From assembly GCA_029237695.1 (NCBI GenBank), contig CM055275.1, positions 88,090,433-88,154,432 of the forward strand: 64,000 nt of DNA, given 5' to 3'. Position 1 is the stretch's first letter, and every line of letters starts with the position of its first letter. The DNA comes from Conchocele bisecta (taxonomy: Eukaryota > Mollusca > Bivalvia > Lucinida > Thyasiridae). Positions 1 to 61,475 of the stretch are shown here, one piece after another. The notes beneath the pieces were generated by a model. The model had not been told where the DNA came from, made no database searches, and saw nothing but the letters and a program-made list of their open reading frames with translations. Position numbers and translations under genes: made by a program.

Positions 1-1
1 A

Positions 2-534: not shown

Positions 535-547
535 TTATTATATTTAA

Positions 548-2150: not shown

Positions 2151-2157
2151 GATCAAT

Positions 2158-2226: not shown

Positions 2227-2311
2227 GCACAAATAAAATAATGAAAACAGGCTGTGCCAAAGCTACATATATTAGATTGGATTAATCAGAAAAAAACCAT
2301 GCCGCGCAACG

Positions 2312-2419
2312 TTTGAAGATGTGGACGAAGCTATATGCGAATATAATACAGTTACTGCTACTGTGACAGGTGCACAACTATTACAAGTATTTGGCAGAGA
2401 GCCAGTATTGAGTGATTTT
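2312..2419 (+). pseudogene. Element 1 protein D, N-terminal part, cut by a repeat (left arm)
   Basis: The 36 codons contain 'FEDVDEAICEY' and end '..EPVLSDF'. They match 'FRNVVEAMREY ... EPQLSDFYVPSEA' of the gene at 24833-25272. After the SDF codons the reading frame runs straight into a hairpin-ended repeat starting at 2420. The C-terminal half of such a gene, starting at the very next residue, is found at 44197-44289 behind the other end of the same repeat family. D homologues carry a C-terminal membrane segment. Confidence 0.6.
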
Positions 2420-2997: not shown

Positions 2998-3497
2998 NNN
3001 NNNNNNNNNNNNNNNNNNNNNNNNNNNNNNNNNNNNNNNNNNNNNNNNNNNNNNNNNNNNNNNNNNNNNNNNNNNNNNNNNNNNNNNNNNNNNNNNNNNN
3101 NNNNNNNNNNNNNNNNNNNNNNNNNNNNNNNNNNNNNNNNNNNNNNNNNNNNNNNNNNNNNNNNNNNNNNNNNNNNNNNNNNNNNNNNNNNNNNNNNNNN
3201 NNNNNNNNNNNNNNNNNNNNNNNNNNNNNNNNNNNNNNNNNNNNNNNNNNNNNNNNNNNNNNNNNNNNNNNNNNNNNNNNNNNNNNNNNNNNNNNNNNNN
3301 NNNNNNNNNNNNNNNNNNNNNNNNNNNNNNNNNNNNNNNNNNNNNNNNNNNNNNNNNNNNNNNNNNNNNNNNNNNNNNNNNNNNNNNNNNNNNNNNNNNN
3401 NNNNNNNNNNNNNNNNNNNNNNNNNNNNNNNNNNNNNNNNNNNNNNNNNNNNNNNNNNNNNNNNNNNNNNNNNNNNNNNNNNNNNNNNNNNNNNNNN
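2998..3497. other. Scaffold gap, 500 N
   Basis: Exactly 500 N, so a placeholder of unknown true length. Both flanks are the same sequence in opposite orientation (the repeat ending 'GTTAATTTTTAAA'). Confidence 1.
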
Positions 3498-4076
3498 TTT
3501 AAAAATTAACAAAAAAATAATGCTCGCTACTGGAGCCCAGAATTTTTATAATAGTCCTATATGTATCTACATATCATATCTGCACAGGTCCACATATTGC
3601 CATAATATTGTCAACACAGTTTACGGAAATGTAATACCCAGGTATAATAATTTACCTGTATAAATTAGCTGTAATAATTTAGCTGGACATTTAGTGGTCA
3701 AGCTGGAAATGTGCACATGCTTGCACATGCAGAAGTGTTCAACTGGAGAAGGCTATTGTTCTCTCTACAGGTAAGGTGTACAGAGCGCACGAGAAAACGG
3801 GTCTTCATGCATTAATGTTCAGTTTGTAGCATAGAAAGAAATAGAGTTTGACCTTGACCCTGGAGCCCGGAATTTTTTTTAATAGTCCTATGTTCATCTA
3901 CATATCCTAGTAAAGGTATGTATAAAGTTTGATGACTGTAGCTGATAAGGTGTTGAAGTAATGACCGTAACACGAACACTTAACATTGAATGATGACGAC
4001 GACGCCGCCGCCGACGACGACGACGACAACGGAAAAGCAAAACCTATGTCTCGCTTTCCACTTCGCGGGCGAGACA
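3498..4076 (-). mobile_element. Hairpin-ended repeat (GTCTCGC family), right arm
   Basis: Mirror copy of 2420-2997: hairpin GTCTCGC/GCGAGAC at about 4048-4075, a GAC/GCC array next to it, then the long AT-rich body leading to the gap. It interrupts gene D at the same codon as the left-arm copy, as expected for a palindrome. Confidence 0.6.
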
Positions 4077-4184
4077 AAAATCACTCAATACTAGCTCTCT
4101 GCCAAATACTTGTAATAGTTGTGCACCTGTCACAGTAGCAGTAACTGTATCATATTCGCGTATAGCTTCGTCCACATCTTCAAA
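4077..4184 (-). pseudogene. Element 1 protein D, N-terminal part (right arm)
   Basis: Thirty-six codons ending 'ELVLSDF', with 'FEDVDEAIREYDTV' upstream. It is closer than the left arm to the homologue at 24833-25272 ('VEAMREYARV'). It is truncated by the repeat at 4076. The downstream membrane segment is missing from this locus. Confidence 0.6.
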
Positions 4185-4269
4185 CGTTGTGCGGCATCGT
4201 TTTTTTCTGATTAATCCAATCTAATATATGTAGCTTTGGCACAGCCTGTTTTCATTATTTTATTTGTGC

Positions 4270-4338
4270 CTATCCTATCTCGAAAGCTGTAATAACATCA
4301 GCGTGGAAAACAAGATTTCCAATTATTTTACCGTCGGT
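4270..4338 (-). pseudogene. Element 1 protein C remnant (right arm)
   Basis: It reads 'TDGKIIGNLVFHADVI' and stops at TAG (4270-4272). It lies between B and D, the position held by C in the 25-27 kb element. Beyond the stop, frames are scrambled. Confidence 0.5.
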
Positions 4339-4377
4339 ATTGATCGATCGTTGTCATTGTTTTTTTAAATATATTAA

Positions 4378-4737
4378 TTAAATGTTTAATTTATTCCATA
4401 CAGTGTAGTTTAACACTGGGCATTTCGTTAACTGTATGCATTTTTGGTTTCTTATTAACTGTAGGTGATTGCCAAAATAATTTCCACCAAGAAAAGTACC
4501 AGCAGTTAAATATATTCCAGCAAACAAATATGTCAAATTCGATTTTGTTTTATGGACAATGACTCTGACGGGTTCATCTTTTTTCTTATGTAATATGTTT
4601 ATTATACTTTCTTGTTTGACTTTATTCACAGCTGCACACTTTTTGCCAGCTTCCACCCATTTTGGATTCTTTGTTACTTGTTTGATCTCCTCCTATGGCT
4701 CTTCTTCCTTTACTTCAGGTATATGTTGATTGTTCTC
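4378..4737 (-). pseudogene. Element 1 protein B: lysine-rich N-terminus plus one membrane segment
   Basis: An acidic start, one in-frame stop (TAG, 4693-4695), then a basic stretch 'AGKKCAAVNKVKQES', a linker, and a hydrophobic segment 'YLFAGIYLTAGTFLGG' of about 16 residues. The basic stretch lines up with 'AGRAAAATREAKQDK' of the gene at 25510-25935, which also has one hydrophobic segment downstream. This supports homology despite the base-composition difference. It is likely a small membrane protein of a Polinton-like element; its exact role is not known. It is followed by C and D on the same strand with short spacing, like a polycistronic cassette. From the first ATG (4656) an uninterrupted 92-codon frame remains. 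Confidence 0.6.
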
Positions 4738-4857
4738 TATTGTTTATATTTATATATGTTATATTTTTAAATTGACAATATTTAATTGTTGTAATCATTG
4801 TAGTAATTGGTGCCACAAATGCACAGAACTTAAAGTATAACGCGCAGCAAGTCGTAG

Positions 4858-5118
4858 TTAGAGCGTATTCAACAAACGGGTCATACTCCAAGGCTTGCTT
4901 TGATTTTCTACAGGTATAGGTAGAACTCCAGCTATCATAGCATACACATTTAATATAGTATTCCCAAGTGTTTTTGTCATTGAAGCACCTAACCTAGCTT
5001 CATATATGTTGTACAGTTTTCGAACTTGTTCATTCCACATATCGTCTAGCTGCGAAATACTTATATCTTTACCCAAATACTGAACTTGCCTCTGGAAGTG
5101 TATTACATTTGGTTTCAC
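4858..5118 (-). CDS. Element 1 protein A, unknown function
   Basis: An 86-codon open frame from ATG 5118. It is mostly helical-looking and polar, with 'GKDISISQLDDMWNEQVR' and 'YEARLGASMTKTLGNTIL', and no membrane segment. It sits upstream of B, C and D on the same strand, so it is probably the first gene kept of the cassette here. It ends at the inner side of the palindrome arm, with the terminal 20 codons mirrored at 2-64. I recognise the general style from genes next to integrases in invertebrate Polinton-like elements but cannot assign a function. It may be C-terminally truncated. Confidence 0.5.
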   Translation of the reverse strand: MKPNVIHFQRQVQYLGKDISISQLDDMWNEQVRKLYNIYEARLGASMTKTLGNTILNVYAMIAGVLPIPVENQSKPWSMTRLLNTL

Positions 5119-6344: not shown

Positions 6345-8140
6345 ATGATAACTGCGTTCCTATCCAAGTTATTGCGAGTGCGACACAACGAAGGTGTAAA
6401 CAACTGGGTCGTCGAAGACAAATTTGACCCGGTCCGAGCCTGGCTTGTTGACGGGAATCGTCAAGGTGTTCTACCAGAATGCCTACCCAGTCACCGCGGT
6501 CATTTACGGGCTCTACCCTCTCAGAGAGCCAGACCCCGCCAACTTGGCCCCAATGCGCGACGGTGATCTTAACTGTGTTGCACAAATAGTGGTGGAGCAT
6601 TTCGAAGGCACCTTGAGAGGCCAGGGGCTGACCCCCACAAGGCGTCAGTAGATACAGGAGTGGGAGAAAAGAGACCATGAAATCGGCGCAACGGTCGGCC
6701 ATGTGGCTGAACTGGAGAGGATCCTCAAAACGTGCAATCATCCTGCGGGACATCGCTGGCGAGAATATCTACAATAGCGGTAAATACCAAAGGGGGAGGG
6801 GACGGGGTTCGCGGCAAAGTAGAACTCATCGTCCACAACAGTCACGCCTGGGGCAAAGACCTCCACTTCCCGCAGTCCATGCATGTTCGCATCTATGACG
6901 GCGATGTCTGGCAAGCAATCAGAGAGGCCACCCGGGAAAAGCCGCTAGCCGTCTGGCTTCTTGGATGCGGAGACAACCAGCTCAACATGGACCAGTTTGT
7001 GCTTCAAGATGGCAGCACTTATAGGACACAGGAAGACCAAGACCGACCTCGAAAAGCGTGCGCTCAACTAGCTGATGAGTCTCTGGCAGAAAAGGTCTTC
7101 GGCATCAACAATGTTGCTGCGGTCATAGCCAGAGAGAAGAATGGCTGGAAGCCCACCCTGGCGCCTTTCGCAGATGACATCCAGAAGGCCTGCGTAGAAC
7201 ACGGTCACGGCGGTCTTTGGAACACGATGGAATACGATACGAGAGACATCATCAGCATCGACAAGAAAGCTTTCAAGATATGGGTGAGGCCAAGCCGTAT
7301 TTCGAGCGGTTCGGACATCCGACCCACCGCATGACAAGGGTCGACATCATTGGCCCCTTCCCAAAGACATTGGTACTGGCTTTGCCGAGGTCCAGAAGCG
7401 GGAGTTTGCACCACAAATCCACCCCGTCATCCCCGCCTGGTTTGGGAGGCATTTCGCTGAGCAGGGCTGGTCCCCGACACCCCTGCTCGCATTCCTAGTG
7501 GAATGCGGACTCTTCAAGAGCCTGATAGTCCGTGAGGCCATCATAGCGTTCGAGAAACAAACCGATGTCTGGCTCCCATATGACAGAGAGCAGGGCTGCA
7601 GCATCATCGGCAAATTCACATAGGGCAGCAAGGCCGGTGGCAAAATGCTCACCCGGCGACTGGTCACTGACGCTGGTGAACTTGACTACTTGGTGAGAGA
7701 CACCCGCCAAAGCGGCACCCTGGTTGGTGAACCTAAAAAATGCCCACTGAGCCACATCCTTACATACTACTCGCAGCCCCAGTACACCAATCTGAGAGCC
7801 AGCATGCTAGCGTATGCCCAATTCGACCTCCTCGCTATGTTGGCGTGATTAAAACCCCGGGAGGCTACCACTGACAGCATCTACGTCCAGAAGACCGCGC
7901 TGTACGAAGTAAAGGCGTATGTATCACGTGACTGCGGGGAAAACTCATGCCGAAGCTGCCTTATAGGCAAGCTGTACCTCCCAACAGTGGCCACAGCCAA
8001 GTGGCACGACAAGGGGGAGCAGCTGTACATCCGCAGGAACACGCCAACTACATCGCCAACCCGGAATATGAGGAACAGAAAAATACCTGATGGCCATAGG
8101 CCGTCAGCCAGAAATGGAAACCATACCAACCCCCCACGTG
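6345..8140 (+). pseudogene. Element 2 copy 1: family-B-like DNA polymerase, decayed, helicase lost
   Basis: Consecutive homologous blocks to 53100-54660 occur in shifting frames. 'NWVVEDKFDPVRAW' and 'VKVFYQNAYPVTAVIYGLYP' lie at about 6400-6520. A longer open stretch at 6732-7334 includes 'KVELIVHNSHAWGKDLHFPQ' and the motif-A-like 'ISIDKKAF'. 'HPVIPAWFGRHFAEQGW' follows at about 7425. 'GELDYLVRDTRQSGTLVG' lies at 7672-7725 and the motif-C-like 'TTDSIYVQKTAL' at about 7870. A CxxxxxCxxC cluster ('CGENSCRSC') follows at about 7936. At least five frame changes and several stops are present. The copy ends near 8140, just before the position where the helicase begins in copy 2. A single D in 'TDS' fits family-B motif C (normally DTDS); assignment to PolB is inference from motif spacing. 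Confidence 0.7.
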
Positions 8141-18520: not shown

Positions 18521-18895
18521 ACTGAAAAGGCAGATTTTATAATAACGCAAACTTCTAAGTCATTTGGCCATGGCATTGGGGCACAGGAGCCACATGAGTG
18601 GGACTCAGAATGTATATATGGATAATGCCCAATAAGCATACAAAGTTTCAAGCAAATCTGACTTACTGTTACAGAGATAATAGGTATGTGACAACTTTAA
18701 CGCAAATGTTGACAGAAACTTTAACACAAATTTCTATGTCATTTTACCTTGGCCTTGGGCACAGGGGCCGCATGAGTGGGATACAGCATGAATATATGGA
18801 TGATGACTAATAAGCATATGAAGTTTCAAGTCAATGTGACTTAGTACTGCAGAGATATTAGGTATTTAAAAACTTTAATGCAGATTTCGGACGTC

Positions 18896-19801
18896 CAGTG
18901 CCAAGAGACGCTAAAGGATTTCCCAATCTGCGTGGGATGGGACAGATTTGTGGAGCAATGGTCTCCAAAAGATTTAATCCTCACCAGCCGTCAGAAGGTC
19001 CGCGACCGGGTGCAGTAGCTGTTGCTGAAAAGGCAATGCGCGCTCTCGCAGGACACGCCGGTGCCTATTCTATTCTCTACCACCCCAAAGACAGCTGAAA
19101 GCAGAATATAACGGTCCCCAGACATGGCACAGACCGAAAAGAAGAGCTCGTCCCCAACAACGTCGTACTAGATGCTGCAGAGCATGCCATCAAGACTGAT
19201 GACTGGCGCCTCGGCTATGCCCTCACAGTCCACAGTTCCCAGGGCCACACGATAAAAAACCCACAGAAAGTCTGGATCATCGACGATTACCTCCAAACGT
19301 GGAACCTCGCGTCTCTCGCGGTGTAGCGTGTGGAGTATATGCATCAGCTCGCACGGGTAACCAGCCCTCTGGATGAGTGTACCGAGGTAGCATCACAAAG
19401 TGACAAGCAACTCCGCAAGGCTATCGCCAAGAAGCTTGTGGCCTACAAGCGCCAGAATCAGGACAAAGATCACCAGGGGTTCAACCTGAAGATTGATCAC
19501 ATCCTGCAGCTCACGGAAGGCCCGCCCAGGAGAATCACTGCGTCGCCTGCAACATCGCGGTCCTCTTGTGCTACGCCCCGAAAGACACACAGCAGTTTAG
19601 TGTGGACCGGTTGGACAACAACAGGGGGCACACACATACGTGACAATGTCCGACTGACCTGTCTGGAATGTAACCGAAAACGCGGAGGCGCGGCGTTCAG
19701 CGAGTGAGCACACCATCTGGTGGCAGCACTGTGTCGGGAGGCACCACAAGAAGCTCTTCCCGGACGAATCCGCAAGAATGTCCAGAATCCAAATAAAATA
19801 G
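18896..19801 (+). pseudogene. Element 2 copy 3: C-terminal helicase plus HNH-like domain
   Basis: Helicase pieces 'DLILTSRQKVRDRVQ' (then TAG) and 'RLGYALTVHSSQGHTIKNP' with 'KVWIIDDYL' (SF1 motifs V/VI region) are followed by 'NLASLAV' and a TAG. Downstream, 'LRKAIAKKLVAYKRQNQDK' leads to an HNH-like domain whose second cysteine pair is intact: 'NVRLTCLECNRKRGGAA'. The first pair is damaged by a frameshift near 19520-19610. After the TGA at 19705-19707, another frame continues about 30 codons to TAG 19799-19801. Polymerase and Walker boxes are missing: the copy is 5'-truncated at about 18896, inside a repeat. It is the only copy here that keeps the gene's 3' end. Confidence 0.75.
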
Positions 19802-19809
19802 CACGGGCT

Positions 19810-21035
19810 CTTCAGGCTTGGTAACCGATAGCTACAATAGTTCGGCTACGATATGTCATCTAGGCTACAAATCGACACTATAAAAAAGCGAGCAACAAAA
19901 GTACATACCCAAACTTATTGCAAAATATAGTCAACTGTATACGTTATAAATTTAAATTAATACTCTTTGATGTAGCACTGGTTATTTGCGAGAAATCGAA
20001 TGACACAGGAATTAGCTCGAAATTATTACCTCTCATAGTCATTCCGCCCACTAGCGGTGAAACACCCGGTGTCGGTGATGTTCCAAATATGGCAGTCACA
20101 ACTAAGCTGAGCCGGCAAGAACTGCTGGATTGTGAACACGCATATCAAAGGCAATTCCGTACAGGTTGCGGCCGTCTGAAACAGACAGAAACGAGACATA
20201 ATTGAAAGGAAATGAGCAGAATGAAAGAGACGAAATCAGTGAATATGCATATGTATATGACCATTGGTGCTGAATTGAGGATTTGCAATGTATTCACATA
20301 CAGTCCAGTCTGCCATACAATAATGAAGGAAGAGATGAGACAAAAATGGACAAATTGAATTAAAGAACAGTCAAAATATAACAATATCAGCCGGTATTTG
20401 CAAGTAGCGGTGACTAGTTGTTTTACGACACATGTGCAATACTAACATAAGCTTTCACATGTTCATATGCAGTCTCATCTGGGTATACACTGGTTGAAAA
20501 CAACTAATTGAAGCTATTTGCATCTACTAGCCCATAATGTAGTAACTGAAAGTGCGAAATCAATACAGAAACCTGAATGAACAAATTTGAGTTGCCATTT
20601 CACTCTGTGTAAATATAATTCTTTGGTAACCCCTAGGACTGGAGCAATCTCAGTATCGAATAAAGATCCATCTACTCTCAAAGGTATGGGCTTATTCTTG
20701 TTCTGAGTACATAACTCTAATTACTGTCTGTTCCACGTTTTGATACTCTCTGTGTGTTAGACCTCCAGATAAGCTCTCTGTACATGTATTTGTTAATATA
20801 AGCAATTAAAACATTTCAGATGCTACTCTGTTTTCAAATGCTACAGATTTGAATTGGGTGTTTACGACACCCAATTTAAATCTGCAGAAATTGAAAGCAG
20901 AGTCTCGGCTTGGCAAATAAATGTCAGAGACATTGTCTATGTATGGTATGGGTTGTGTCCTAGAGGTTGAAGCACTGGACTTCGCCCTAGGAGTGAAAAA
21001 TACTTTCATAGCATTTCCATCAATAGCACACAACT
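19810..21035. other. No gene seen
   Basis: Short frames without motifs. Partial sequence of the fold-back family at about 20725-20745 ('TACTGTCTGTTCCACGTTTT'). Confidence 0.5.
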
Positions 21036-24608: not shown

Positions 24609-24793
24609 TTTTCAAGGAACTCGGAGGAATCTAACATCCGCTTTGCGAAAAGGGTGGCCGCTTGTTCGTCCTCGCGCCACGTCTTTAGAGAGTCTTGGGC
24701 CAGACTGCTCAGACCCTTTGCGCCAGTTAAACGGTGTTTGAGGGCCGTGTAGCCTACATCGAGCAGAGCGAAATAGAGCTTGTCAACTAACAT
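24602..24793 (-). pseudogene. Element 1 protein E, left cassette, truncated
   Basis: A 63-codon frame: 'LYFALLDVGYTALKHRLTGA' then 'TWREDEQAATLFAKRMLDSS'. The plus-strand cassette repeats it at 27286-27560 ('TWRENENAATLF'). Gene E therefore lies between D and integrase in this element. Here the C-terminus stops at a TAG created by the repeat junction at 24603. No family recognised; soluble, charged, probably helical. Confidence 0.55.
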
Positions 24794-24832
24794 CGTTCTA
24801 TATATATTATTTAAAAAAGTTTTATAAAATTA

Positions 24833-25272
24833 TTATTGCTTATTGCTTTTGCTTATTGCTTTTCCAATATAGTAGATGACGAGACCCATCGCAATCATCC
24901 CCACGACGATGAACGCGATCTCGCGGTCTTTTTGGGCCTCCGACGGTACATAGAAATCTGAAAGTTGGGGCTCGGGATCCAGCGGTGCGAGAATTTTCTG
25001 CGGATATACCCGCGCGTATTCGCGCATGGCTTCGACAACGTTCCGGAAAGCTTGCACGGCGTGATTCCTGCGGCGAAACTCTTCGTTGATCCAGTCTAGA
25101 CGGGCGGTTCGTGCTTCCTTACCCTATTGAGTTGTTCTGCAGCTAAATCGTGACGCTTGTGCTCCTCATCCGCGTCCGAGTTATTAGGAATTAACGAGAA
25201 TAAATAGTTGCTAGCGCCGAACGCCCCTGCGCTCACGACTGCACCAACTAATATTAATACGAGCGCAGCCAT
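24833..25272 (-). pseudogene. Element 1 protein D, left cassette: N- and C-terminal membrane segments
   Basis: Start ATG at 25272, directly after the TAA of gene C (no spacing). N-terminal hydrophobic run 'ALVLILVGAVVSAGAFGASN', a charged middle with a frameshift near 25110, then 'FRNVVEAMREYARVYPQ', 'EPQLSDFYVPSEAQKDREI' and a C-terminal membrane segment 'FIVVGMIAMGLVIYYIG'. It is collinear with the intact-looking plus-strand copy at 26814. It is likely a small virion or membrane protein of a Polinton-like element; function unproven. From an internal ATG at 25057 a 74-codon frame is uninterrupted. Confidence 0.6.
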
Positions 25273-25506
25273 TTATTTCCATATATTAGCGGGTAGAATT
25301 CCAGCTTTAATTAGATAATCTCGAGTCCCAACTGCGGCCGCTACATCTAAGGTCACGAGCCCTACTTCTCTCACGGTCATATCCAATTTGGGAGCGGGCC
25401 CTCCGAAGGCCATCTTTGATAGTCGATCAAACCCGATACTGAGACCCAATATCACCACGGCGTGATAAAGCGCATTCACTATCAGTTTACCATCGTTTTC
25501 AGCCAT
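25273..25506 (-). CDS. Element 1 protein C, left cassette: 77-residue membrane protein
   Basis: From ATG 25506 to TAA 25273. 'MAENDGKLIVNALYHAVVIL' begins with a hydrophobic helix continuing 'GLSIGF'; a polar middle 'FGGPAPKLDMTVREVG' and a second moderately hydrophobic stretch 'LVTLDVAAAVGTRDYLIKAG' follow. The frame is intact in this cassette but broken in the plus-strand cassette and at 4270-4338. It overlaps nothing and is followed at once by D's ATG, which suggests translation from a polycistronic or overlapping transcript. I have seen similar small proteins in Polinton-like elements of invertebrates but know no function. Confidence 0.6.
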   Translation of the reverse strand: MAENDGKLIVNALYHAVVILGLSIGFDRLSKMAFGGPAPKLDMTVREVGLVTLDVAAAVGTRDYLIKAGILPANIWK

Positions 25507-25509
25507 TAC

Positions 25510-25935
25510 ATATAGTGATAATTGCATATAAAAGGGATCGCGATCAATGTTTAAATGGGGCGCAATCGGTTTCGGAACCGCGGCTGGTTGTCTCGAAAGG
25601 TAGTTCCGCACACACGGTGCCAAGAACTGCCAGGCCACCACCAACAATCCACGGGATGGTCCAGGTACGAGCTGCAGCAATCCACGATTGCTCCGACAGT
25701 TCCTGCGGAGATTGAACCGCAGCTATCTTCGGGTGTTTTGCTGTTTCTGCCCCCAACTCCAATTGCGATTGGTGCTCCAGTTCGTGAATTGGGGGTGCGG
25801 CTGGAACCAATAACGACTGTTTGGCCTCTCGAAGCTTGGCGAGTATTTTATCTTGTTTAGCTTCTCGGGTGGCAGCCGCTGCCCGCCCAGCTGCCTGTCT
25901 TTTTTGGTTCTTGTGTCGTGCAATCGGAGACAGTT
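25510..25935 (-). pseudogene. Element 1 protein B, left cassette, frameshifted
   Basis: Basic N-terminus 'AGRAAAATREAKQDKILAKL', a glutamine-rich linker, a membrane segment 'TIPWIVGGGLAVLGTV', then a frameshift near 25600. In the other frame follows 'YLSRQPAAVPKPIAPHLNID' and 'DPFYMQ', which runs without a stop into gene C. The plus-strand cassette has the same end 'DPFYMQ' but a TAA before C. Homologous to the AT-rich 4378-4737 protein by its A-G-K/R, A-A and K-Q-D/E pattern. Confidence 0.6.
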
Positions 25936-25969
25936 CATCCAACACTGTTGGGGGATCATTCGGAGTTGG

Positions 25970-26210
25970 AAGTGCAATCGGGCAGCAGCAGTGGGACGAA
26001 GCCAGAAAGCAGTTTGCTGCCAGCTCTAAGCGCACCCCGGAGCTTGCCGCGGTTGCCAAAGACCTGCAGCTCTCGGACGTTTCCATCGCGGAGTTACTGA
26101 CTTCCAAGTACGCGCTATGGCTAGACATGCGAGCCAGCGACGATGACCAAATACACGGTAGTGGACGTCAAGTTGAGAACACTCGCGAGGGTGTGACGAT
26201 CCACCTGTGA
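25970..26210 (+). pseudogene. Element 1 upstream protein fragment (right cassette)
   Basis: The plus-strand frame contains 'QQQWDEARKQFAASSKRTPE' and 'VAKDLQLSDVSIAELLTSKY', amphipathic and charged, ending before B at 26208-26210 (TGA). No matching copy precedes the left cassette, so the duplication boundary lies between 25935 and 25970. Start not defined. Unknown function; possibly a helix-turn-helix-like or scaffold protein, but that is a guess. Confidence 0.45.
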
Positions 26211-26220
26211 CGATTCGCCT

Positions 26221-26553
26221 GCCACCCGAAAAGCTAAACAAGATCAAATACTCGCAGAGCTTCGAGAGGCCAAACGGTTGTTAGTTCCTGGTGTTGAAAC
26301 AGCAAAACGCCTGAAGGTGGTTCCACATCCGAAGGCAGCTTCGGTTCCATCTCCTGAGGAGCAATCGGGGATTGGGGCTCCTACCTGGATCATCCCGTGG
26401 GTTGTTTGTGGTGGTCTGGCAGTTGCGGGCACCATGTGTCTGTTCCCGCTGCGGAACTACCTTTCGCGACAACCAGCCGCGATTCCGAAGGAAGTTCCGA
26501 AACCGATTGCACCCCATTTAAACATTGATCGCGATCCCTTTTATATGCAATAA
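26221..26553 (+). CDS. Element 1 protein B, right cassette
   Basis: Open frame 'ATRKAKQDQILAELREAKRL', a proline-rich linker, the membrane segment 'WIIPWVVCGGLAVAGTMCLF', then 'YLSRQPAAIPKEVPKPIAPH' and 'DPFYMQ' before TAA 26551-26553. The true start is unclear because the first ATG-containing frame upstream is broken; 26221 marks where homology with the left cassette begins. Followed 10 bases later by the ATG of C. The membrane segment with a flanking basic region suggests a small membrane or capsid-associated protein. Confidence 0.55.
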   Translation, partial: ATRKAKQDQILAELREAKRLLVPGVETAKRLKVVPHPKAASVPSPEEQSGIGAPTWIIPWVVCGGLAVAGTMCLFPLRNYLSRQPAAIPKEVPKPIAPHLNIDRDPFYMQ

Positions 26554-26563
26554 CTGTATAGTA

Positions 26564-26805
26564 ATGGCTGAATACGATCGTAAAATGTAGTGAATGCGGG
26601 TTATCACGCCGTGGTGATATCTGGTCACAGTATCGGGTTTGCTAGCCTATCAAAGATGGTCTTCGGAGGGCCTGCTCCCAAATTGGACTTGACCACGCGA
26701 GACACAGGTCTACGCGAGACATAGGTCTCGTGACCTTGGATGTAGCGGCCGCAGTTGTGACCCGAGATTATCTAGTTAAAGCTGGAATTCTACCCGCTAA
26801 TATAT
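26564..26805 (+). pseudogene. Element 1 protein C, right cassette, broken
   Basis: ATG at 26564 ('MAEYDRKM') then a stop. 'NAGYHAVVISGHSIGFASL' and 'KMVFGGPAPKLDLTTRDTG' follow in another frame. A short duplication near 26697-26730 ('GCGAGACA' twice with 'TAGGTCTCGTGAC') disrupts the rest. The end matches the left copy ('LPANI' then TAG). Confidence 0.6.
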
Positions 26806-26813
26806 AGAAATAA

Positions 26814-27344
26814 ATGGCTTCGATCGGAATGCTCTTAGGTGGTGTGGTGGTGAACGCATTGTCGTTCAGCGGTAGCAACTATTTATTCTCGAAACTGAAA
26901 AGATCGGACGCGGATGAGGAACGCAAGCGTCACGATTCAGCTGTAGAACAACTCAATAGCGCAAAGGAAGCATGGTCGCAAAAACGAACCGCCCGTCTTG
27001 ACTGGCTCAAAGAAGATCTTCGTCGCGAGAAGCACGCCGTGCAAACCTTCCGGAACGTTGATGACGCCATACGCGAGTACGCTCTGGTATATCCGCAGAT
27101 AAGTCTCGCGCCGCTGGTACCCGAGCCCCAGCTTTCAGATTTATATGTACCGTCAGAGGCCCAAAAATACCGCGAGATCGCGTTCGTAGTCATGGGAATG
27201 GTTGCGACGGGTCTTGTTAGCTACTATATTACAAAAGCAATAAGCAATTTAACTTTTATTAATTTATATACATGTATATATAGAACGATATTAGTTAACG
27301 AGCTTTATTACTTTCTGCACGATGCAGGCTACACGGCCCTCTAA
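26814..27344 (+). CDS. Element 1 protein D, right cassette, fused in frame to start of E
   Basis: From ATG 26814. N-terminal hydrophobic run 'MLLGGVVVNALSFSGSNYLF', then 'KRSDADEERKRHDSAVEQLN', a helical charged middle ('KRTARLDWLKEDLRREKHAV'), 'EPQLSDLYVPSEAQKYREI' and a C-terminal membrane segment 'FVVMGMVATGLVSYYITKAI'. Total 176 codons; D proper would end near 27240. The frame reads on into E ('VNELYYFLHDAGYTAL', TAA 27342-27344... read as TAA after CTC) because a D stop is absent. Best-preserved D copy, and the one to use for structure prediction. Confidence 0.6.
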   Translation: MASIGMLLGGVVVNALSFSGSNYLFSKLKRSDADEERKRHDSAVEQLNSAKEAWSQKRTARLDWLKEDLRREKHAVQTFRNVDDAIREYALVYPQISLAPLVPEPQLSDLYVPSEAQKYREIAFVVMGMVATGLVSYYITKAISNLTFINLYTCIYRTILVNELYYFLHDAGYTAL

Positions 27345-27560
27345 CACCGTTTAGCTGGCGCAAAGGGTCTGATCCGTTTGCCCAAACCTCTCTAGAGACG
27401 TGGCGCGAGAACGAAAACGCGGCCACCCTTTTCACAAAGCGGATGTTAGATTCCTCCGAGTTCCTTCAGAACTCAACCGGCAAAACTTATAACAAAGGTT
27501 TAGTATCGACGACTAACAAAGGTTTAGTTACGCGACGATCTGGCGAGGGCATGTTGGAGA
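27286..27560 (+). pseudogene. Element 1 protein E, right cassette
   Basis: 'VNELYYFLHDAGYTAL' then a stop, then 'HRLAGAKG' and, after a one-base shift, 'DPFAQTSLETWRENENAATL' and 'FTKRMLDSSEFLQN'. It ends with a short duplicated 'NKGLV' stretch before the integrase. Not recognised; homologous to 24602-24793. Confidence 0.5.
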
Positions 27561-27591
27561 CTCTTCGATCTACTAGAATACCTCGCATACG

Positions 27592-28590
27592 ATGGACACG
27601 CACAATCTCGATAATAGCAAACTATCGGTTCGCCTAGCGCGCAAGCTAGCGAACACGTACTACAGCCCCCGCGGGTACTGGAAGGGACTCGCGGCCATCA
27701 AGAACCTCGCGGCCACGGAATGGCTCAAGAAGCAGGCCATCTGGCAGATATATTTGCCCACGCCGCACAATATTCCGCGGCCAAATTTCGACGTGCCGGT
27801 GCCGAACGAAGTCCACCAAGCAGACCTTCTGTTTCGCCCTCACGATCGCGTCGGTCGCAAGACGTACAAGTACGCACTGACTGTCGTTGACGTAGCGAGT
27901 CGCTATAAGGGGGCTGAGCCGCTGGCCACGAAAGAGTCTAAGGAGGTGGCCGAGGTTCTTTCTCGAATATACAAGAGGAGTCCTCTCAAATGGGCGAATC
28001 TTCTCCAGGTCGATCCCGGCCGCGAGTTCATGGGCGCGGTCTCCCAACTGTTGACTAAACACGACGTTTCTGTCAGACGCGGCCTCGTCGACATCCTCCA
28101 GGATCAGTGGATCGTGGAGCGGTTCAATCTAACCCTGGCTGTGAGGCTGTTCGGGCACCAATATGTAAAATAGCTTGTAGACCCTCATTCGCGATCGACC
28201 GAGTGGGTGACCAGGCTGCCCTCTGTGGTCTCTGCACTGAACGGCGAGGTGACCAGATTGATCGGTAAGAAACCCGTAGATGCCATCAAGTCTAAAATGG
28301 TGTCGCACAAGCCCTCTGACGTCTCGCGCGGGCGACCCGTTGGTTTAGCGGAGCAACGGCTTCCATCGGATGGTGCGTCCGGTACCTCCATCAACCGGGA
28401 GAGCTCGAGGGTGGCCGCCGCCGCGCGACTGATCCCGTGTGGTCTCTCAATGTATATCATCTGGATCCATCTATTACCAAACCCGATGCTCTACTACATC
28501 GCCAGTGGTCCATCGCGCGGGTTTGTTCGCGAAGAACATCTTGCGGTGCCTTCTGACACCCAGCCAACCCCAGACCACCCGTCGTCGTAG
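27592..28590 (+). pseudogene. Element 1 retroviral-type integrase (DDE)
   Basis: From ATG 27592. N-terminal 'YYSPRGYWKGLAAIKNLA', then the catalytic core: D in 'VHQADLLFRPHD', D in 'LQVDPGREFMG', E in 'QDQWIVERFN', the D,D,E set used by retroviral and Polinton integrases for strand transfer. A TAG (28171-28173) follows 'QYVK'; the same frame then continues 'EWVTRLPSVVSALNGEVTRL' and 'GKKPVDAIKSKMVSHKPSD'. Two opposite frameshifts between about 28380 and 28490 scramble the middle of the C-terminal domain before 'SGPSRGFVREEHLAVPSDT'. Compared with the AT-rich copy at 44532, about 12 residues after 'KNLA' are missing. Convergent with the polymerase. The family assignment is strong; this copy is unlikely to be active. 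Confidence 0.85.
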
Positions 28591-28668: not shown

Positions 28669-31095
28669 TTATCTATCTATAGGCTCTGTGTGTATCCCGT
28701 CTTCCATCACTCTCCTCTTGTCGTAGTACGCCGACAGCCCCAGCTTCTCCTGCGTGTACGTCTTCATCACACCGTTAACCATTCGGAATCCCCTGTTCTC
28801 CGCCGTGTCCCTCCCCCTTCGAGAGCACTCTTGTACCTCCACCAAGGCAGATCGTTAGATCTCTTCGACATCCCCTTTACCGAGTGCTTAGAGTTTCCGT
28901 CATCACCCACGTAGTAGCACTCGCTGCACAGAGCGATGGCTCTATCCCCATCGAATTCCAGCTTGAACAGTCCCGGAGTTCTGTTGCTCCACGCGTCCCA
29001 CGCCAACCACTCGGCCTTCTCCTTGTTGAACTTTCTCTTTATCTTCTTCCGCACCACCTTCGCCAGCGTCTTCCCCGACACCGCGAAGTACATGCTGTCA
29101 GTGTATACGTGTATGTGTATAAGTTCGCAATCTCCGCGATCCACGTACTTGTGCAAGAAGTCGTAGTAGAACTCCAGCATCCGGAGCTTGGCCAACTGGC
29201 AGACCGCTATGCCATACTGAAACGGTATGTTGATCACCACTCGAGTCTTCCTGCTTGATATCTTGTAAGCCTCCCCAATCTCCTCCAGAACCACTTCGAA
29301 CAACGCCGACCTCAGTGCCCGGTCGACAGTCTTCTCATCCTTCGTATAAGTGGTGTTCATGTGTTTCTCTTGAGCCTCTATCAGCTTGCCACAACACGCG
29401 TTACCAACCAGTTTGAATATCTCCACCAACACCTTCTTGCTCTTGTCAACGTCCCCCGTCCGTCTGGCGGCGGTGACCTCTTTAACCAACCATTGGAACG
29501 GTTTGCCGGGCGTGTAGTCGATCACCCTATGCACCGCCTTGACGACCAGACCGTGCTCCAGATACCACTTTAGCAGCTGGGAGTAGACGATCATCTTCTT
29601 GGCGGACAGTGCCCCCACGAGCTTTCACTGTCCTTCGACCCTTTTCCTCCCGGTCCTGGCCAGGTAGTCCTTCATGTGCTGCGGAACCTCGGTCTCGTTA
29701 ACTTCTCGATTAACGAACAGCGGCGACATTTCAGAGAACTTGTCTCGCAACGTTTCCGGGACCACTATATCAACTCCGCAAATCCGAACCACTAGTCGCG
29801 TCTGGCCTTCCTCACGAAACGATATATATGCGACTGTCTTTCCGGGTCGTCTCACGTCCATATCTTCTCCTCCCCGCACACCCCCAACGACACCGATATA
29901 GGTACGTGCTATCTGGTGAGGGTACAGAGTCGTCTCCTCCTCGGGCGGCGATTGTGGATAGTGGTGAGCCCCCTCATTCAACCACGCGCACTCCCACATC
30001 ACCACCAGCTCGTAACCCGCCTCCCTTATCTTGGCATCTTGAATTTTCGTCCTCTTGTACAGCGATCTCGCGTTACCTCTCCTGTAATGCGTCGGACACC
30101 CGTGCTAGTACCATTCGTGAAACTGAAACACGATCTTGGTCTCGTGACAGTAGCTGTCGACCGGATCGCCGGCCACCCACCTCTCGCCGCCGTGACCGCA
30201 TCTCGCGTGATGTATGTGCTTTCACACCCTCTTCTCTTCTCTGCTCAACCATTGAATCGACATCGCGCTCGCTGACCCCTTATGATAGAACGCCTTCTCG
30301 TGTGCCGACTGCGGCCTCTCTACCCTCTTACCTGGACATATCACTACGGTCTTCCCACATATGCAGGTGGTCGCGTGCCTGTGCATGTTACACGACTTTG
30401 TGAACCGTTGTTGACATCCGGTGCACCCGTACTCGTTCGTCATCTTGCGGAGGTTCTTGATGAGGAACGAGTGACCTCCAAACATTCCTATCGTCATGAT
30501 CGTCTCCCCAAACGCGTCGTAGTTTGCCGGAGACTTCATGACGTACCACACTCCGTCGGCGGTGGGCTCGTAAACGCGAATGCCCAGCTTGAAGTGCTCT
30601 TCGACCTTCTTAATATCATTCAGGGGGATTCCCTTACTACCCGGTCCGTTATTGTGCCCGAGGTATTCGCGAGACAGAGCCCGTGCCTCCTCATTTGCGG
30701 TCGGGTCTCCCTCCACGGTGGATGGCTATGCACCTAAACAGACACAAGTAGTCGTCGTACGTGTCGATGGAATACATTACCTTTTTCTGTCTTAACCAAT
30801 CGGGGAGTTTTCCCGCTCCCATGAGGAGTTGTTGAGCGTCGATGATCATCTTCACCTCGACCGATATCCAAAGAACGAAGGTCCATTTTGTGTTTGGTCT
30901 ATCGACTTTGTCGATGTCCATTCGACCTTTCTCTCTATCGGCTATCCAACTGTCAGCTTTGGCGATCTCGTTTACCCACGGACTACCCGGGGAGTTTTTG
31001 TGAAAGATCATAGTAGCGTCGGTCTCGATGTTTCTAATACGATACGAATACCTCAGATAACATGCCGTGGTCATCTCTGGGCGAATTTTATTCAT
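28669..31095 (-). pseudogene. Element 1 protein-primed-type DNA polymerase B, internally deleted
   Basis: Read from 31095 down. N-terminal region 'NSPGSPWVNEIAKADSWIAD' and 'YDDYLCLFRCIAIHRGG'. A frame change near 30700 precedes a C2H2-like finger 'CTGCQQRFTKSCNMHRHATTC' region (30425-30365). 'WHGCPTHYRRGNARSLYKR' lies in a further frame at about 30105-30050, and 'VVMWECAWLNEG' at about 30000. The next recognisable part is 'LRDKFSEMSPLFVNREVNET' (about 29745). I do not see the exonuclease motifs or motif A (DxxSLYP) in between. Palm: motif B reads 'KLVGNACCGK' (canonical KxxxNSxYG) and motif C 'VYTDSMYF', with Tyr in place of the first Asp of DTD. The last ~35 codons (28669-28780) are in another frame. 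Such polymerases replicate Polinton/adintovirus-like genomes; this one cannot be active. Confidence 0.85.
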
Positions 31096-31983: not shown

Positions 31984-32090
31984 AGTAGTATAAGGGAGTC
32001 AACGATGATACCACCTCCTGGTGGGAACCACCGCGCGTAGCGGGTGGCTTCCAGAGGCAGGTGGTATCATTTCGACTCCCTGATACTACT
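31984..32090. repeat. Long imperfect hairpin, ~35 bp arms
   Basis: 'AGTAGTATAAGGGAGTCAAC' at 31984 pairs with the inverse ending 'GACTCCCTGATACTACT' at 32090. The inner part 'GATACCACCTCC' pairs with 'GGCAGGTGGTATC', with a smaller stem in the loop. Confidence 0.75.
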
Positions 32091-44196: not shown

Positions 44197-44289
44197 TATA
44201 CTCCTTCACAAAGTAAAAAAGATAGAGAAATTTTGTTTTTAGTTTGTGGAATTATTATTGTTGGGTTTATAGCGTATATGTTGGTTTAA
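44197..44289 (+). pseudogene. Element 1 protein D, C-terminal half (AT-rich copy)
   Basis: 'YTPSQSKKDREILFLVCGII' continues 'IVGFIAYMLV' and stops at TAA. It matches 'YVPSEAQKDREIAFIVVGMI' of 24833-25272 from the residue right after 'LSDF'. The frame is open back through the repeat, but that part is not gene. It keeps the C-terminal membrane helix. Confidence 0.65.
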
Positions 44290-44394
44290 GCTTATTATGT
44301 ATAGCTTGTAAAAAGAGCCCACACTGAAAGTGTTAAAACCATAGATTAACCATAAACAGTATCTTTAGTAGAATACTTAGTAATATTATAGATT

Positions 44395-44478
44395 TCATTC
44401 TGCCCATTTCACTGAGCTATAGTGACCTTGTTCTTTGGAGCCTTCTTCAATTTTGGCTTGTGTGATTTGCTGTGCCAT
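44395..44478 (-). CDS. Possible 27-residue peptide between D and integrase
   Basis: Minus-strand frame from ATG 44478 to TGA: 'MAQQITQAKIEEGSKEQGHY', polar and helical-looking. It occupies the position of gene E but on the opposite strand. It may be the start of a divergent gene now deleted, or chance. Confidence 0.25.
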   Translation of the reverse strand: MAQQITQAKIEEGSKEQGHYSSVKWAE

Positions 44479-44531
44479 TATTATTTTTTTGTTATACTGT
44501 TATATAAATATATCTTAAACATACATAAAAA

Positions 44532-45150
44532 ATGGAGAAAATTTATTACAGCCCAAAAGGATTTTGGAAAGGTTTAACAGCTGTTAAGAAATTAGCAAAG
44601 GCTGTAAAAGTAAGTGATAAAGAAGCATTTCATGTTTTAATAGAAACAAGCTATATGGCAACTTTGTTTACCTGCACCAAAGATATAGTACGGCCAAAGT
44701 TTGATGTATCTAACAGAAATAAAGTCCATCAAGCTGATTTATTATTCTTACCACATGATACTGTTGGCTGAAAAGCATACAAGTATGCTTCGACTGTTGT
44801 TGATATTGCAAACAGGTATAATGATGCTGAATCGCTGACTTCAAAGGACAGTAAAGAAGTTGCTAATGCTTTTGAAAATATTTGTAAAAGACAGTTAGTG
44901 TATCCAAAGTTATTAGAAGTAGATCCTGGGCGAGAGTTCATGAGAGCTGTTACAAAACTGATGGACAAACACAATGTAAACATAAGAAGAGGTAGAACAG
45001 AAATACATAGAGATCAGGCTATAGTGGAAAGATTTAACATAACATAATAACATTGGCTGAAAGATTACAATGAAGTACAGTACAAGGAGACATGCCAAGA
45101 AGGGTGCCACCTTGGACAGGACAGTGCATAAAGCACACCACATGAATGAT
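44532..45150 (+). pseudogene. Element 1 integrase, AT-rich copy
   Basis: From ATG 44532. 'YYSPKGFWKGLTAVKKLA', then 'VHQADLLFLPHD' (first D), TGA at 44769-44771, 'KYASTVVDIANRYN', 'LEVDPGREFMRA' (second D) and 'RDQAIVERFN' (E). Two stops follow at about 45044. 'LAERL' is then readable in another frame, after which similarity fades. Clearly homologous to 27592-28590 but with much lower GC. It retains the residues after 'KKLA' that the other copy lacks. The D,D,E residues survive although the gene is dead. Confidence 0.8.
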
Positions 45151-52144: not shown

Positions 52145-52450
52145 TCGCAGTAGCAGCAGGGGGTGCGGAAAGACCAGCTCCCCAGGGCCAGCCGCGGCTC
52201 CCATCCCACTTTCCCGGGCAGGACCATGTCCAGCATGGTATGCGAATGCAGAGACAGTGGTAAACCCACGAGGCGAACCCAGAGACGACCCGCCCCTCTC
52301 GCCGGCCCGGGCTCGCCCTGCGCCTCCCAGCCCCCTTCCCCATGATCAGCATAGTATGTGAACGCTGCGCTTGCGGTGAGAAGCCCAGGGACGGCGAGCC
52401 CTTCTCGCCCGCGAGCAAAACCATGTCGAACGCTGCCGGCTCGGGCACTC
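52145..52450 (+). repeat. GC-rich inverted repeat, left (element 2 terminus candidate)
   Basis: Abrupt GC-rich onset. It shares 'AGCTCCCCAGGGCCAG', 'CAGGACCATGTCCAGCATGG' and 'CTCTCGCCGGCCCGGGCTCG' with the reverse complement of 61145-61475, over about 270 bp. No coding frame of interest. Lies 0.4 kb upstream of the element 2 gene. Confidence 0.75.
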
Positions 52451-52499: not shown

Positions 52500-52821
52500 A
52501 GGTGTAAAAACCATTGCCAGTGGCTCGTTCCAATCTCCACGGAGCTATATGGTCGTAGCTGTCTTGGGGACCACTGTAAAGTTCACATTGCCCGACTTCG
52601 GAAAGGTGGCGGCACAAGGCCCTGCAAAATGTGGAATAGGTGTTCCGAACCGTTTATCGTTGTGTCAGTCTTACGGGTATGTGAATGAGTTTGTTAAGGC
52701 ATGTCAGCGAAAGAAGGCGGCATTCGAGAAGGAGTGTAGGCATCGGGCTGTGATAGATGCCTTCTGAATTTCCTATTAGAGATACGTTAATACTGGGTAT
52801 ACCGATTACCCACCCAGCAAC
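52500..52821 (+). other. Leader between terminal repeat and element 2 gene
   Basis: A 90-codon frame starts at 52495 but shows no motif and no counterpart upstream of copy 1. Possibly an untranslated leader. Confidence 0.3.
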
Positions 52822-54770
52822 ATGGCCACAATGGATGAACTCATCAACGAAATGCTTGCAGAGATGCCAGACCCCGTCCCAGAGGGACAATAATTTATCG
52901 ACCTGGACACAGGCCCCTCCCCCGGTGCGGCTCCCAGCCTGCGAACCGTGGGTCGAGATTCTGAACGACGCCAAAGAAGAGTTTGAACTCGATGACACCC
53001 TCGCTGTCTTCTCTACATGGAGTGTAGAAGCAGAAGACCCGCTTGACATTGGTGACATTGAGATTGCCGATGGTATGAATGGCCCTGGACGCCCGCATGG
53101 CGGACAAGAGGGCGGCAGAGCTACTCGCAGCCATTCCAGAGGGCGACTTCGTCCTGAAAATCAAGATCGTGCGCGAGCAGGATGAAGATGACTGGATCGT
53201 CGAAGATAAGTTTGACCCAGTCAGAACAGAGAGGAGGAGGAGCCAAGGTATTGTTGAGATATCTCGAGACACCAAGCCAGGGACTCGGATCGACAATGTT
53301 CTACCAGAATGCTTACCCAGTCACAGCGGTCGTTTACGGGCTCTACCCTCTCAGAGGCATGCGGGACATCGCTGATGAAGAGATCTACAACAGCGGCAAA
53401 TACATAGGGAACGCAGGCAACACATGCAGAAAAGTAGAACTCATCGTCCACAACGGTCACGCCTGGCACAAAGACCTGCATTTCCCACAGTCCCGTGAGG
53501 TCCGCCGGTATGAGGGTGATGTGTGGGAAGCAATCAGACAGGCCACACAGGATGAGCCGCTCGCAGTCTGGCTCCTTGGAGGTAGTTCCGAAGGAAAGCA
53601 GCTCACTGTAGACCAGTTTGTGCTCCAGGACGGTCGCATTTACAGGACGCAGGAAGCCCACGAGAGACTCCAGAAAGCCTGTCAAATATTGGGCGATGAA
53701 TCCCTGGCCGACAAAACCTTCGGGATGAACCATGCTGCGAGCATCATGGCTAAACAACGAAACAGCTGGAAGCCGACTCGGGCCAGTCTCCTCGATGACA
53801 TCCAAAGGGCCTGTGTAGAACACCGCCACGGCGGCCTCTGGAACACTATGGACTATGACACGAGAACCGTCGTCAGCATCGACATGAAGGCTTCTTACCT
53901 CGCCAACTTCCAAGGAATGTGCGAGGCCAAACCCTATTTCGAGTGGTTCGGACATCCGGGCCACAGGATGACCCGGGTTGCGATCAACAGCGCCCTACCC
54001 GAAGAAATAGGGACTGGCTTCGCCGTGGTTATCGAGTGGCAGTTCGTAGTAAAATTCCACCCTGTCATCCCCGTCTGGTTTGGGAAGCATTTCGCAGAGA
54101 ACGGCTAGGCCCCGACGCCCCTGCTCGCCTTTCTAGTTGACAAGGATATTCTGAAGACCCTCAAGGTCCGCGAGACCATTGTAGCTTTCGATAACGAAAC
54201 CGATGTATGGCTCCCATATGACAGAGACCAGGGATGCAGTTTCATCGGCAAATTCACACAGGGCAGCAAGGCCGACGGCAAAATGTTGACGCGGCGCCTG
54301 GTCACTGACGCTGGTTAACTTGACTTCCTTGTGCGAGACACCCGCCAAAGCGGCGCACTGGTTGGGGCACCCCAAAGGCCAGGTGTCCTCACATGCTACG
54401 ACGGCTCACAGCCCAGTACACCCACATGAGGGCGAACATGCTGGGTTATGCCCACATTAATATGCTCGAGATGCTGCGGCGATTCACCCCCGAGGAGGCT
54501 GTCCGAGTGGCCACTGACAGCATCTACGTCCAGAAAACGGCGATGCACAGGCTCGACGAAGTCAAGGCGTATGTATCACATAAGCTGTGCGACTGCGGAA
54601 AGGGCTTATGTATAAGCTGCATTATAGGCCTGCCGTACCTTACCCCCAGTAGCCCCGGCCCAGTGGAGCTACAAGGGCGGGCAGCTCGTCATGTCACAGG
54701 AAGACACCGGCTACCTCGCAAATCCGGAATACCAATGTACCAGAAGGAACGGGAAAAGACCTGGCGCCCA
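52822..54770 (+). pseudogene. Element 2 copy 2: family-B-like DNA polymerase part
   Basis: Likely start ATG 52822 ('MATMDELINEMLAEMPDPVP', TAA at 52891-52893). It continues in other frames: 'EEFELDDTLAVFSTW' (about 52980) and 'DFVLKIKIVREQDEDDWIVE' (about 53145). The main frame 53182-54108 holds 'YQNAYPVTAVVYGLYPLRG', 'GKVELIVHNGHAW'-like sequence, 'EPLAVWLLGG', 'HGGLWNTMDYDTRTVVSIDM' and 'KASYLANF' (motif-A-like DxxxSY). After TAG 54106-54108 the same frame gives 'FIGKFTQGSKADGKMLTRRL' and a second stop near 54317. 54393-54560 reads 'YTHMRANMLGYAHINMLEML' and motif-C-like 'VATDSIYVQKT'. A CxCx4-5CxxC cluster ('CDCGKGLCISC') follows. The polymerase call rests on ordered A and C motifs; an unusual or very divergent PolB. 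Confidence 0.65.
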
Positions 54771-54774
54771 GCAC

Positions 54775-55720
54775 CGCGCCAATCTACAACGACCCGCCAA
54801 CACGCCACCAGCTGAGTTACCTCAACGGCGGCGGTGGGAGCGGCAAGACGACGAGAGCTATTAAGCTCTTCCGGGCGAGAGACCCGATCGTGTTTACCCC
54901 CGACCCACCGCCTCCCCAAAGAAATGAGGGCCCGATGCATCAAAGCCCAGACCTACCACGGCTTATTTCGATGGAGTGGGCAGAATTACTGGACGCCCCT
55001 CCGGATGGGTCGAAAGTTCGTCCCCTGTGTGATCATCTGGGACGAGGTCTGCACCGTGCCCCGCCCCATTCTCGAGACATTTCTGTATTGGCTGGATCGT
55101 TCTGGGGTTCAGGTCATCTGTTTCGGCGACCAGGGTCAGCCACCACCGATAGCGGGTAAGATGCCGCATGACTGACACGTCGATTATTACGAAGAGGTCG
55201 AAGTCGACCAGATTGGTTCCAGTGCCGAGAAATGTGTAGGGTTCTCCCAGCCTGCCTGGGATGTGTCCGGTTTGTTGAGCAGTGGAGGCACAGAGACCTA
55301 ATCCTCACCAGCCGTCAGAAGGTCCGCGACCGGGCGCAGGAGCTGTTGTTGAAAGTACATAAGGAGCACTTCCCAGCCAGACAGGTCTCACTACTGTACC
55401 ACCCTAAGGACTACCTATGGTATCTATCCCATACATTGACCGAAGGGAAGAGCTCGTCCTCAATGACATCGTAGAGGTCATACTAGAGGCTGCAGAGGCT
55501 ACCATCAGGGGCGATGACTCGCGCCCTCACGGTTCACAATTCCCAGGGTCTCACCATCCACGACCCATGAACGGTCTGGATCATTGACGACTACCTCTAG
55601 TGGTGCAACCTTGCTTACCTCGCCGTCTCAAGAGTAGAGTACCCGAGCAGTTCCAGCGGGTCGCCTGGCCACCAGTTGAGGGGACTGAAGTCGGGAAGTG
55701 CACTGAACAGCAACTCCGCA
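54775..55720 (+). pseudogene. Element 2 copy 2: SF1 helicase part
   Basis: 'LSYLNGGGGSGKTTRAI' (Walker A, about 54815-54860); 'RCIKAQTYHGLFRWSG' (motif Ia region); Walker B 'CVIIWDEVCTVPRPILETFL' with 'VQVICFGDQGQPPPIAG' (motif III, GDxxQ) at 55020-55155; TGA at 55173-55175. Then 'DLILTSRQKVRDRAQELLLK' (motif IV) and, after frame changes, 'ALTVHNSQGLTIHDP', 'VWIIDDYL' and 'LAYLAVSRVEY' (motifs V/VI, 55520-55640). This is the Pif1/RecD-like SF1 pattern. No stop codon separates polymerase and helicase in a consistent way, suggesting one fused protein. At least four frame changes. Confidence 0.8.
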
Positions 55721-55724
55721 AGCA

Positions 55725-55895
55725 AATCCAGAGAAAGCCTGTGGCCCACAAGCGCCTGGAGGAGGAACAACAGAACCGCTGCACGGCGTGCAACGTTGAG
55801 CTGATATGGGCGTACCAGGCCAAAGACACGCATTAGTTCTGTATCGACCGGCTAGAAAACAGCAAGGGGCACTGCATACTCGAAAATGAAGTACA
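55725..55895 (+). pseudogene. Element 2 copy 2: HNH-like nuclease part, truncated
   Basis: 'KPVAHKRLEEEQQNRCTACN' with the first CxxC, 'VELIWAYQAKDTH', an in-frame TAG, then 'FCIDRLENSKGHC'. Similarity ends at about 55895, before the second CxxC kept in copy 3. The CxxC ... DRL.N..GH ... CxxCN layout fits a zinc-binding HNH/treble-clef nuclease; the usual DH is DR here, so activity is uncertain. Confidence 0.65.
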
Positions 55896-61144: not shown

Positions 61145-61475
61145 CATGGATGTCGCACGCATTTACGCTCGGCGAGGGTTGTGGGCCGTCCCTTATGGCA
61201 GATCCATGTTGTTTATTTTGGCGTTGCTTGCGGGAAAGGGGGGAGCGTCCCTGGGCTTCTCACCCGCAAGCGCAGCGTTCGCATACCATGCTGATCATGG
61301 CGACGGGGGCTGAGAGGCGCGGAGCGAGCCCGGGCCGGCGAGAGGGGCGAGCTCGCCTCATGGGTTTACCATTGTCTCTGCATCGCATACCATGCTGGAC
61401 ATGGTCCTGCCCGGGAAAAGAGGCTGGAAGCCGTGACTGGCCCTGGGGAGCTGGGCACCCCCTGATGCTCACAGC
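61145..61475 (-). repeat. GC-rich inverted repeat, right (element 2 terminus candidate)
   Basis: Inverse of 52145-52450, with an extra inner part ('GGCGAGGGTTGTGGGCCGTC') whose inverse is at about 6058-6077. It lies 0.1 kb upstream of a host exon. A (TA)n tract precedes it (61098-61124). Confidence 0.75.

Follow-up and report, generated by a model that had tools for sequence, protein, structure and literature searches.

Polymerase-helicase fusions known as Tlr1-like helicases (pPolB-S1H fusions, in which a protein-primed family B DNA polymerase, pPolB, is joined to a superfamily 1 (SF1) helicase) have been described from Tlr1 elements, polinton-like viruses and transpovirons, with an optional GIY-YIG or HNH domain at the C-terminus (PMC11071308). 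The usual replicase of Polintons/Mavericks differs in being a pPolB with an exonuclease and without a helicase. Here we describe a fusion gene in a 64,000-nucleotide stretch of DNA, hereafter the window (C11:88090433-88154432 of a 1.89-Gb genome, in which all own-genome searches were made). We read it, with a probability of roughly 0.85, as the decayed replicase gene of a Polinton/Maverick-type endogenous DNA virus (Preplasmiviricota), belonging to the Tlr1-like class and representing one of two alternative modules on a shared capsid-integrase chassis.

The window contains three decayed parts of one protein family, copies A, B and C, all on the plus strand and all with broken frames (Table 1). 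By tblastn of open pieces, C matches A collinearly (amino acid identity up to 75%, E down to 4.5e-81) and likewise B (E down to 6.7e-15), and A and C share 73% DNA identity over 1385 columns. The ratio of nonsynonymous to synonymous substitution rates (dN/dS) is 0.27 between A and C over 257 codons (0.21, 0.55 and 0.28 in three segments), 0.48 and 0.13 between B and C on 40 and 33 codons, and 0.10-0.33 in four within-lineage replicase pairs; the pair L031-L036 was saturated. An earlier interpretation made from the window's letters (the sequence-only reading) had counted three copies. Three stretches of one family are indeed present, but A and B have no residues in common, so the window holds at least two copies, perhaps three; A and B, non-overlapping and on the same strand, could represent a single copy in two parts. 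The description of the copy at 52822-55895 as nearly whole holds, as residues 10-1153 of an intact relative, L031, map on C. The frame of C is broken by several shifts, and tblastn gave no coverage of L031 residues 191 to 264, the vOTU cysteine segment being gone. In a quick tree with few columns filled for the window pieces, copy A joins the L031 lineage (support 98), while copy C falls into a broader group that includes database proteins, with weak support for its precise position (81).

Intact copies, which the sequence-only reading had proposed to look for, include L031, an uninterrupted copy in the same genome, with an integrase as its neighbour. A single open frame of 1175 codons (1174 amino acids) encodes every domain in the order N-terminal domain, vOTU-like protease, PolB palm, SF1 helicase of the RecD2/Pif1 kind and HNH-like tail. 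The palm is of the protein-primed type, without recognisable exonuclease motifs. We counted residue conservation over 32 long homologs. Motif A Asp425 is kept in 31, and motif B residues H609, L610, R611 and S613 are each invariant (32/32). The string ‘VATDSIYV’, which had been taken for motif C, retains the second aspartate (Asp640, 31/32), but alanine stands in place of the first in 30/32, giving ATDS. In the helicase, Walker A Lys746 (31/32), motif II Asp811 (31/32) and Glu812 (29/32), the Gly, Asp and Gln of motif III (28/32 each, with 4 gaps), the His, Gln and Gly of motif V (32/32) and motif VI Arg1041 (31/32) are conserved. Together with the tblastn homology, these counts confirm the ordered polymerase and helicase motifs, collinear across the copies, that had been noticed from the sequence.

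The remaining domains are less sharply defined. The HNH-like tail keeps its CxxC, D, N and CxxC residues and matches Pfam HNH weakly, in 4/32 homologs (best E 0.023); it and the vOTU-like part are putative assignments from motifs and weak matches. The frames of L033 and L036 stop after the helicase, without an HNH-like tail. Profile searches of each block had been suggested as a check; in Pfam and PDB sequence searches with the window pieces the helicase was the sole match. The N-terminal domain was modelled and gave no informative match, including to a terminal protein, and a fold search with the N-terminal half returned nothing at E<=0.001. BFVD entry H6WBE3 (999 amino acids) aligns to the structure model over its full length with a low TM-score.

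L031 and nine other loci have an end in common, some 0.5 kb upstream of their replicase. Searching the genome with this end (40 of 275 candidates scored), we paired by eye 14 inverted matches lying 8.5 to 19.6 kb apart, the other scored places being unpaired. Eight of the 14 pairs hold a scored replicase match, and a ninth also contains the replicase. Among ten pairs, a 5-bp target duplication was seen in eight (in two of them after one extra GCT), was lacking in one and was not read in one; the textbook figure for Polintons is about 6. The elements end in AGCAGC..GCTGCT (AG..CT) with terminal inverted repeats (TIRs), which enclose an rve integrase, a capsid gene and an A32-type ATPase; integrase and replicase lie tail to tail. 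The L031 integrase (Pfam rve, 4.9e-8) and the packaging ATPase (Pox_A32, 1.6e-9) score above the Pfam cut-off; the capsid gene gives a weak match below it (Capsid_N, 3.6e-4), and its Elysia homolog is named Major capsid protein. Further genes in the elements had no Pfam match above cut-off, and no rve integrase match was found in the 10-kb loci L033, L034, L036 and L038, nor in L064-L066. Around copy C we located both TIRs of the enclosing element (Table 1), with no target duplication recognised. The proposal of a replicative mobile element or endogenous virus thus stands as a TIR-bounded Polinton-type element, its cleavage part resting on the motifs and weak matches of the HNH-like tail. The view that the element belongs to no named group does not hold, as the fusion order has been published under the name ‘Tlr1-like helicase’ and the element is of Polinton type.

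Table 1. Positions in the window of the replicase copies, the element ends and other element remnants.
Feature	Position	Strand	Basis
Copy C, fusion replicase: N-terminal domain, PolB palm, SF1 helicase, HNH-like tail	52816..55875	+	tblastn with L031 replicase, residues 10-1153
Copy A: vOTU-like segment retaining its Cys, palm with motifs A-C, Cys cluster	6406..8078	+	tblastn, residues 151-725; open reading frames
Copy B: helicase C-terminal motifs and HNH-like tail	18878..19698	+	tblastn, residues 897-1173
Left TIR of element around copy C, starts AGCAGCAGGG	52152..52393	.	inverted match to 61469-61246, 84% over 243 columns
Right TIR of element around copy C	61246..61469	.	inverted match to left TIR
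Integrase C-terminal piece, tail to tail with copy B (arrangement of L031)	19706..19828	-	tblastn, 73% over 41 aa, E 1.6e-13
Classical-type PolB remnant: OTU-like N-part, C2H2 finger, motif B GNACCGK, motif C YTDS	28848..31014	-	tblastn, motifs by eye
rve-type integrase remnant adjoining classical PolB remnant	27544..28575	+	71% to L031 integrase, E 2e-154
Tentative match to outer end of a classical-PolB element's TIR	32059..32090	.	33 columns, 91%, E 3e-6
Major capsid protein fragment	25980..26207	+	78% over 76 aa, E 4e-35
Small element gene next to integrase, hydrophobic N-terminus	26814..27248	+	72% over 145 aa, E 9e-70
Second, inverted copy of small gene, within inverted duplication	24854..25272	-	sequence match
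Further remnant: small-gene piece 44197-44283 and integrase 44517-45044	44197..45044	+	integrase 58% over 177 aa, E 3e-61
Late-gene piece of related element	4658..5082	-	partial second copy at 22-264, plus strand

The capsid gene led to sister elements. For the capsid, the own-genome search listed 15,483 first-look candidates, compared with 764 for the replicase piece; both figures are query-dependent and do not measure copy number. The 97 capsid places that were scored are 93-100% identical, mostly with open frames of some 432 codons, a hint of a very large and recent expansion. We sampled three capsid loci near the top of the list that lacked a scored fusion match (L068, L072 and L073) and found a classical PolB in each. 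The capsid protein of L068 is 97% identical to that of the fusion element L032, yet L068 carries the classical PolB; the capsid protein of L069 is also 97% identical to that of L032, and L069 carries the fusion. L068 is bounded by TIRs of its own (394 bp, 97.7% identical; duplication AGTCG). Against L031, L069 and L032, its integrase DNA is 94, 93 and 88% identical and the small gene before the integrase 93, 95 and 92%; across the ATPase and the genes following it, identity to the fusion elements is 79-88%. DNA identity stops at the last integrase codons, where the convergent PolB starts. This PolB has Exo I-III and motifs A-C in order, in broken frames. L072 has the same PolB (96% DNA identity) and an integrase 84.7-87% identical to those of the fusion elements, with homology lost at the same point, so that the breakpoint is seen in the two classical-PolB elements compared. 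In L073 the PolB is again the same (96% DNA identity), the sampled stretch lying outside the integrase region. The classical PolB pieces matched no polymerase family in Pfam or NCBIfam; we named them from motifs read by eye.

Judged from these alignments, classical PolB and fusion apparently alternate in the same slot. A bolder proposal, which we consider doubtful, is that Polintons here trade whole replication modules at the integrase end, each with its own TIRs, with the HNH-like tail possibly acting as a homing-type nuclease that drives replacement. The coding end of the tail sits at the module breakpoint; that the tail promotes the exchange is a guess. A serious competitor, to which we give somewhat less than even odds, is that two long-separated viruses exchanged the capsid-integrase block between them, and that no replicase was swapped on a single chassis. 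The breakpoint can be read in both directions, each element type has distinct TIRs, and the shared block is itself a mosaic (79-88% in the ATPase and next genes, 88-95% in the small gene and integrase). Nothing decisive speaks against such a transfer; it is the breakpoint alone that the comparison shows.

The fusion protein most likely works in the manner of the family described in PMC11071308. The N-terminal region, a candidate terminal protein, would prime synthesis at the inverted-repeat ends; the vOTU-like domain would cleave itself, separating primer from polymerase; and the palm would copy the strand while the fused helicase, of the SF1B type, opens the duplex. The rve integrase would then insert the linear copy, making the 5-bp target duplication. 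In a rival account the polymerase part is dead and the protein acts solely as a helicase-nuclease, with replication supplied by the classical PolB of sister elements or by a host polymerase. The alanine in motif C and the presence of such sister elements in the same genome favour that account, but the preserved motif A and second motif-C aspartates and the intact motif B oppose it, and active polymerases without the first aspartate are named in PMC11071308; we find it improbable.

We consider very improbable a non-viral replicative transposon in its own right, made up mainly of the fusion gene, that inserts near or into Polintons, although only 4 of the 97 scored capsid places were seen by eye to have a scored replicase match within 10 kb (both candidate lists being partly scored). 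In L031, L032 and L069 the replicase starts some 0.5 kb inward of one TIR and its other end adjoins the integrase, and the TIR-bounded elements that hold it also contain capsid, ATPase and integrase genes. As the TIRs enclose Polinton genes, we dropped a stand-alone transposon as a candidate. Chance open reading frames with motif-like noise, which the broken window copies and the helicase-only Pfam detection might suggest, are refuted by the own-genome matches, the database homologs at E<=1 (both counted below) and dN/dS values below 1.

The stretch at 28848-31014 matches pieces of L068 and L070 by tblastn at 62-63% (two pieces), 38% (a third) and 47-52% (N-part), and the adjoining integrase remnant has two stops in frame 0; the window contains remnants of both replication modules. 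The TIR-end match at 32059-32090 overlaps a dispersed repeat that begins at 32064. An inverted duplication at 24609-27471, with arms 85-90% complementary, places the capsid fragment between two opposed small-gene copies. At 1-4921, large, nested, near-perfect inverted repeats (98-100%) surround a run of N at 2998-3497; they may be genuine or a product of assembly, and one of them is perhaps inflated by the N run.

The replicase family is widespread. Searched with the open piece of C, the genome itself yielded at least 128 matches (126 of the 764 first-look candidates scored), with open frames of up to 1175 codons. The same piece found 258 homologs at E<=1 in the protein database, further Candidatus Thiodiazotropha bins being among the matches listed. 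Residues 1-720 of L031 found 81 database proteins at E<=0.001, whose named sources include sea slugs (Elysia), a Candidatus Thiodiazotropha bin and arbuscular mycorrhizal fungi (Gigaspora, Diversispora, Racocetra, Cetraspora, Ambispora and Rhizophagus). The Candidatus Thiodiazotropha matches are probably host DNA within lucinid-clam symbiont assemblies. The window itself probably comes from a mollusc host. Three pairs of replicase and capsid homologs lie on database contigs of matching sizes (10057, 11702 and 14105 bases), which suggests that the same linkage exists outside this genome. Scans of IMG/VR (two window pieces, replicase profile, capsid protein and capsid profile) and of phage records and GTDB contigs confirmed no relative; they covered a few short patterns or close similarity and are weak evidence of absence. 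Within the genome, L033, L034, L036 and L038 form an AT-rich replicase lineage with 49-54% identity to the window piece. About 70 kb past copy C on the same contig lies an extra copy (L035, C11:88209600-88219599), 82% identical to the window piece and accompanied by an inverted integrase remnant.

A 2016 paper reportedly gives an SF1 helicase plus an inactivated polymerase as a shared signature. Among the literature titles and abstract beginnings listed, a scope that takes in the full text of neither this fusion paper nor the adintovirus paper, none reported the fusion from an animal. The elements here resemble animal Polintons/Mavericks (adintoviruses) in their TIRs, AG..CT ends, rve integrase, predicted capsid gene, A32-type ATPase and length of 8.5-20 kb, but carry a pPolB-helicase fusion in place of the Polinton-typical pPolB without helicase. 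Their replicase has an exonuclease-less protein-primed palm with an SF1 helicase C-terminal to it, and shares with Tlr1-like helicases the order of a putative vOTU domain, palm and helicase and the loss of the first motif-C aspartate; Tlr1 itself has an rve integrase (PMC11071308). Unlike the described fusions of polinton-like viruses, Tlr1 and transpovirons, however, they reside in what is apparently an animal genome, and their relatives occur in sea slugs and in arbuscular mycorrhizal fungi. OmPLV, an endogenous polinton-like virus of Oxyrrhis marina, also joins SF1 helicase and pPolB in one protein, but its helicase is N-terminal, its exonuclease is kept and an rve integrase was undetected (PMC12721341). 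In cryptophyte polinton-like viruses an HNH domain is fused to a helicase, in one cluster adjoining an rve integrase, but these are protist elements with the HNH N-terminal to the helicase (PMC12220804). The domain order matches that of the published Tlr1-like class; within the sources available, what looks new is the kind of host and the abrupt point at which homology between sister elements breaks off.

In the sources available, polymerase-helicase fusions of this class otherwise come from protist viruses and satellites; here there are many copies in an animal-type genome, and surveys for classical PolB alone would overlook the elements that carry them. Replicase replacement in polinton-like viruses was inferred earlier from conflicting trees (PMC12220804), whereas here an apparent exchange is visible as a sharp breakpoint. 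Sister elements with a common capsid and integrase and a different replicase offer a natural comparison of two replication strategies.
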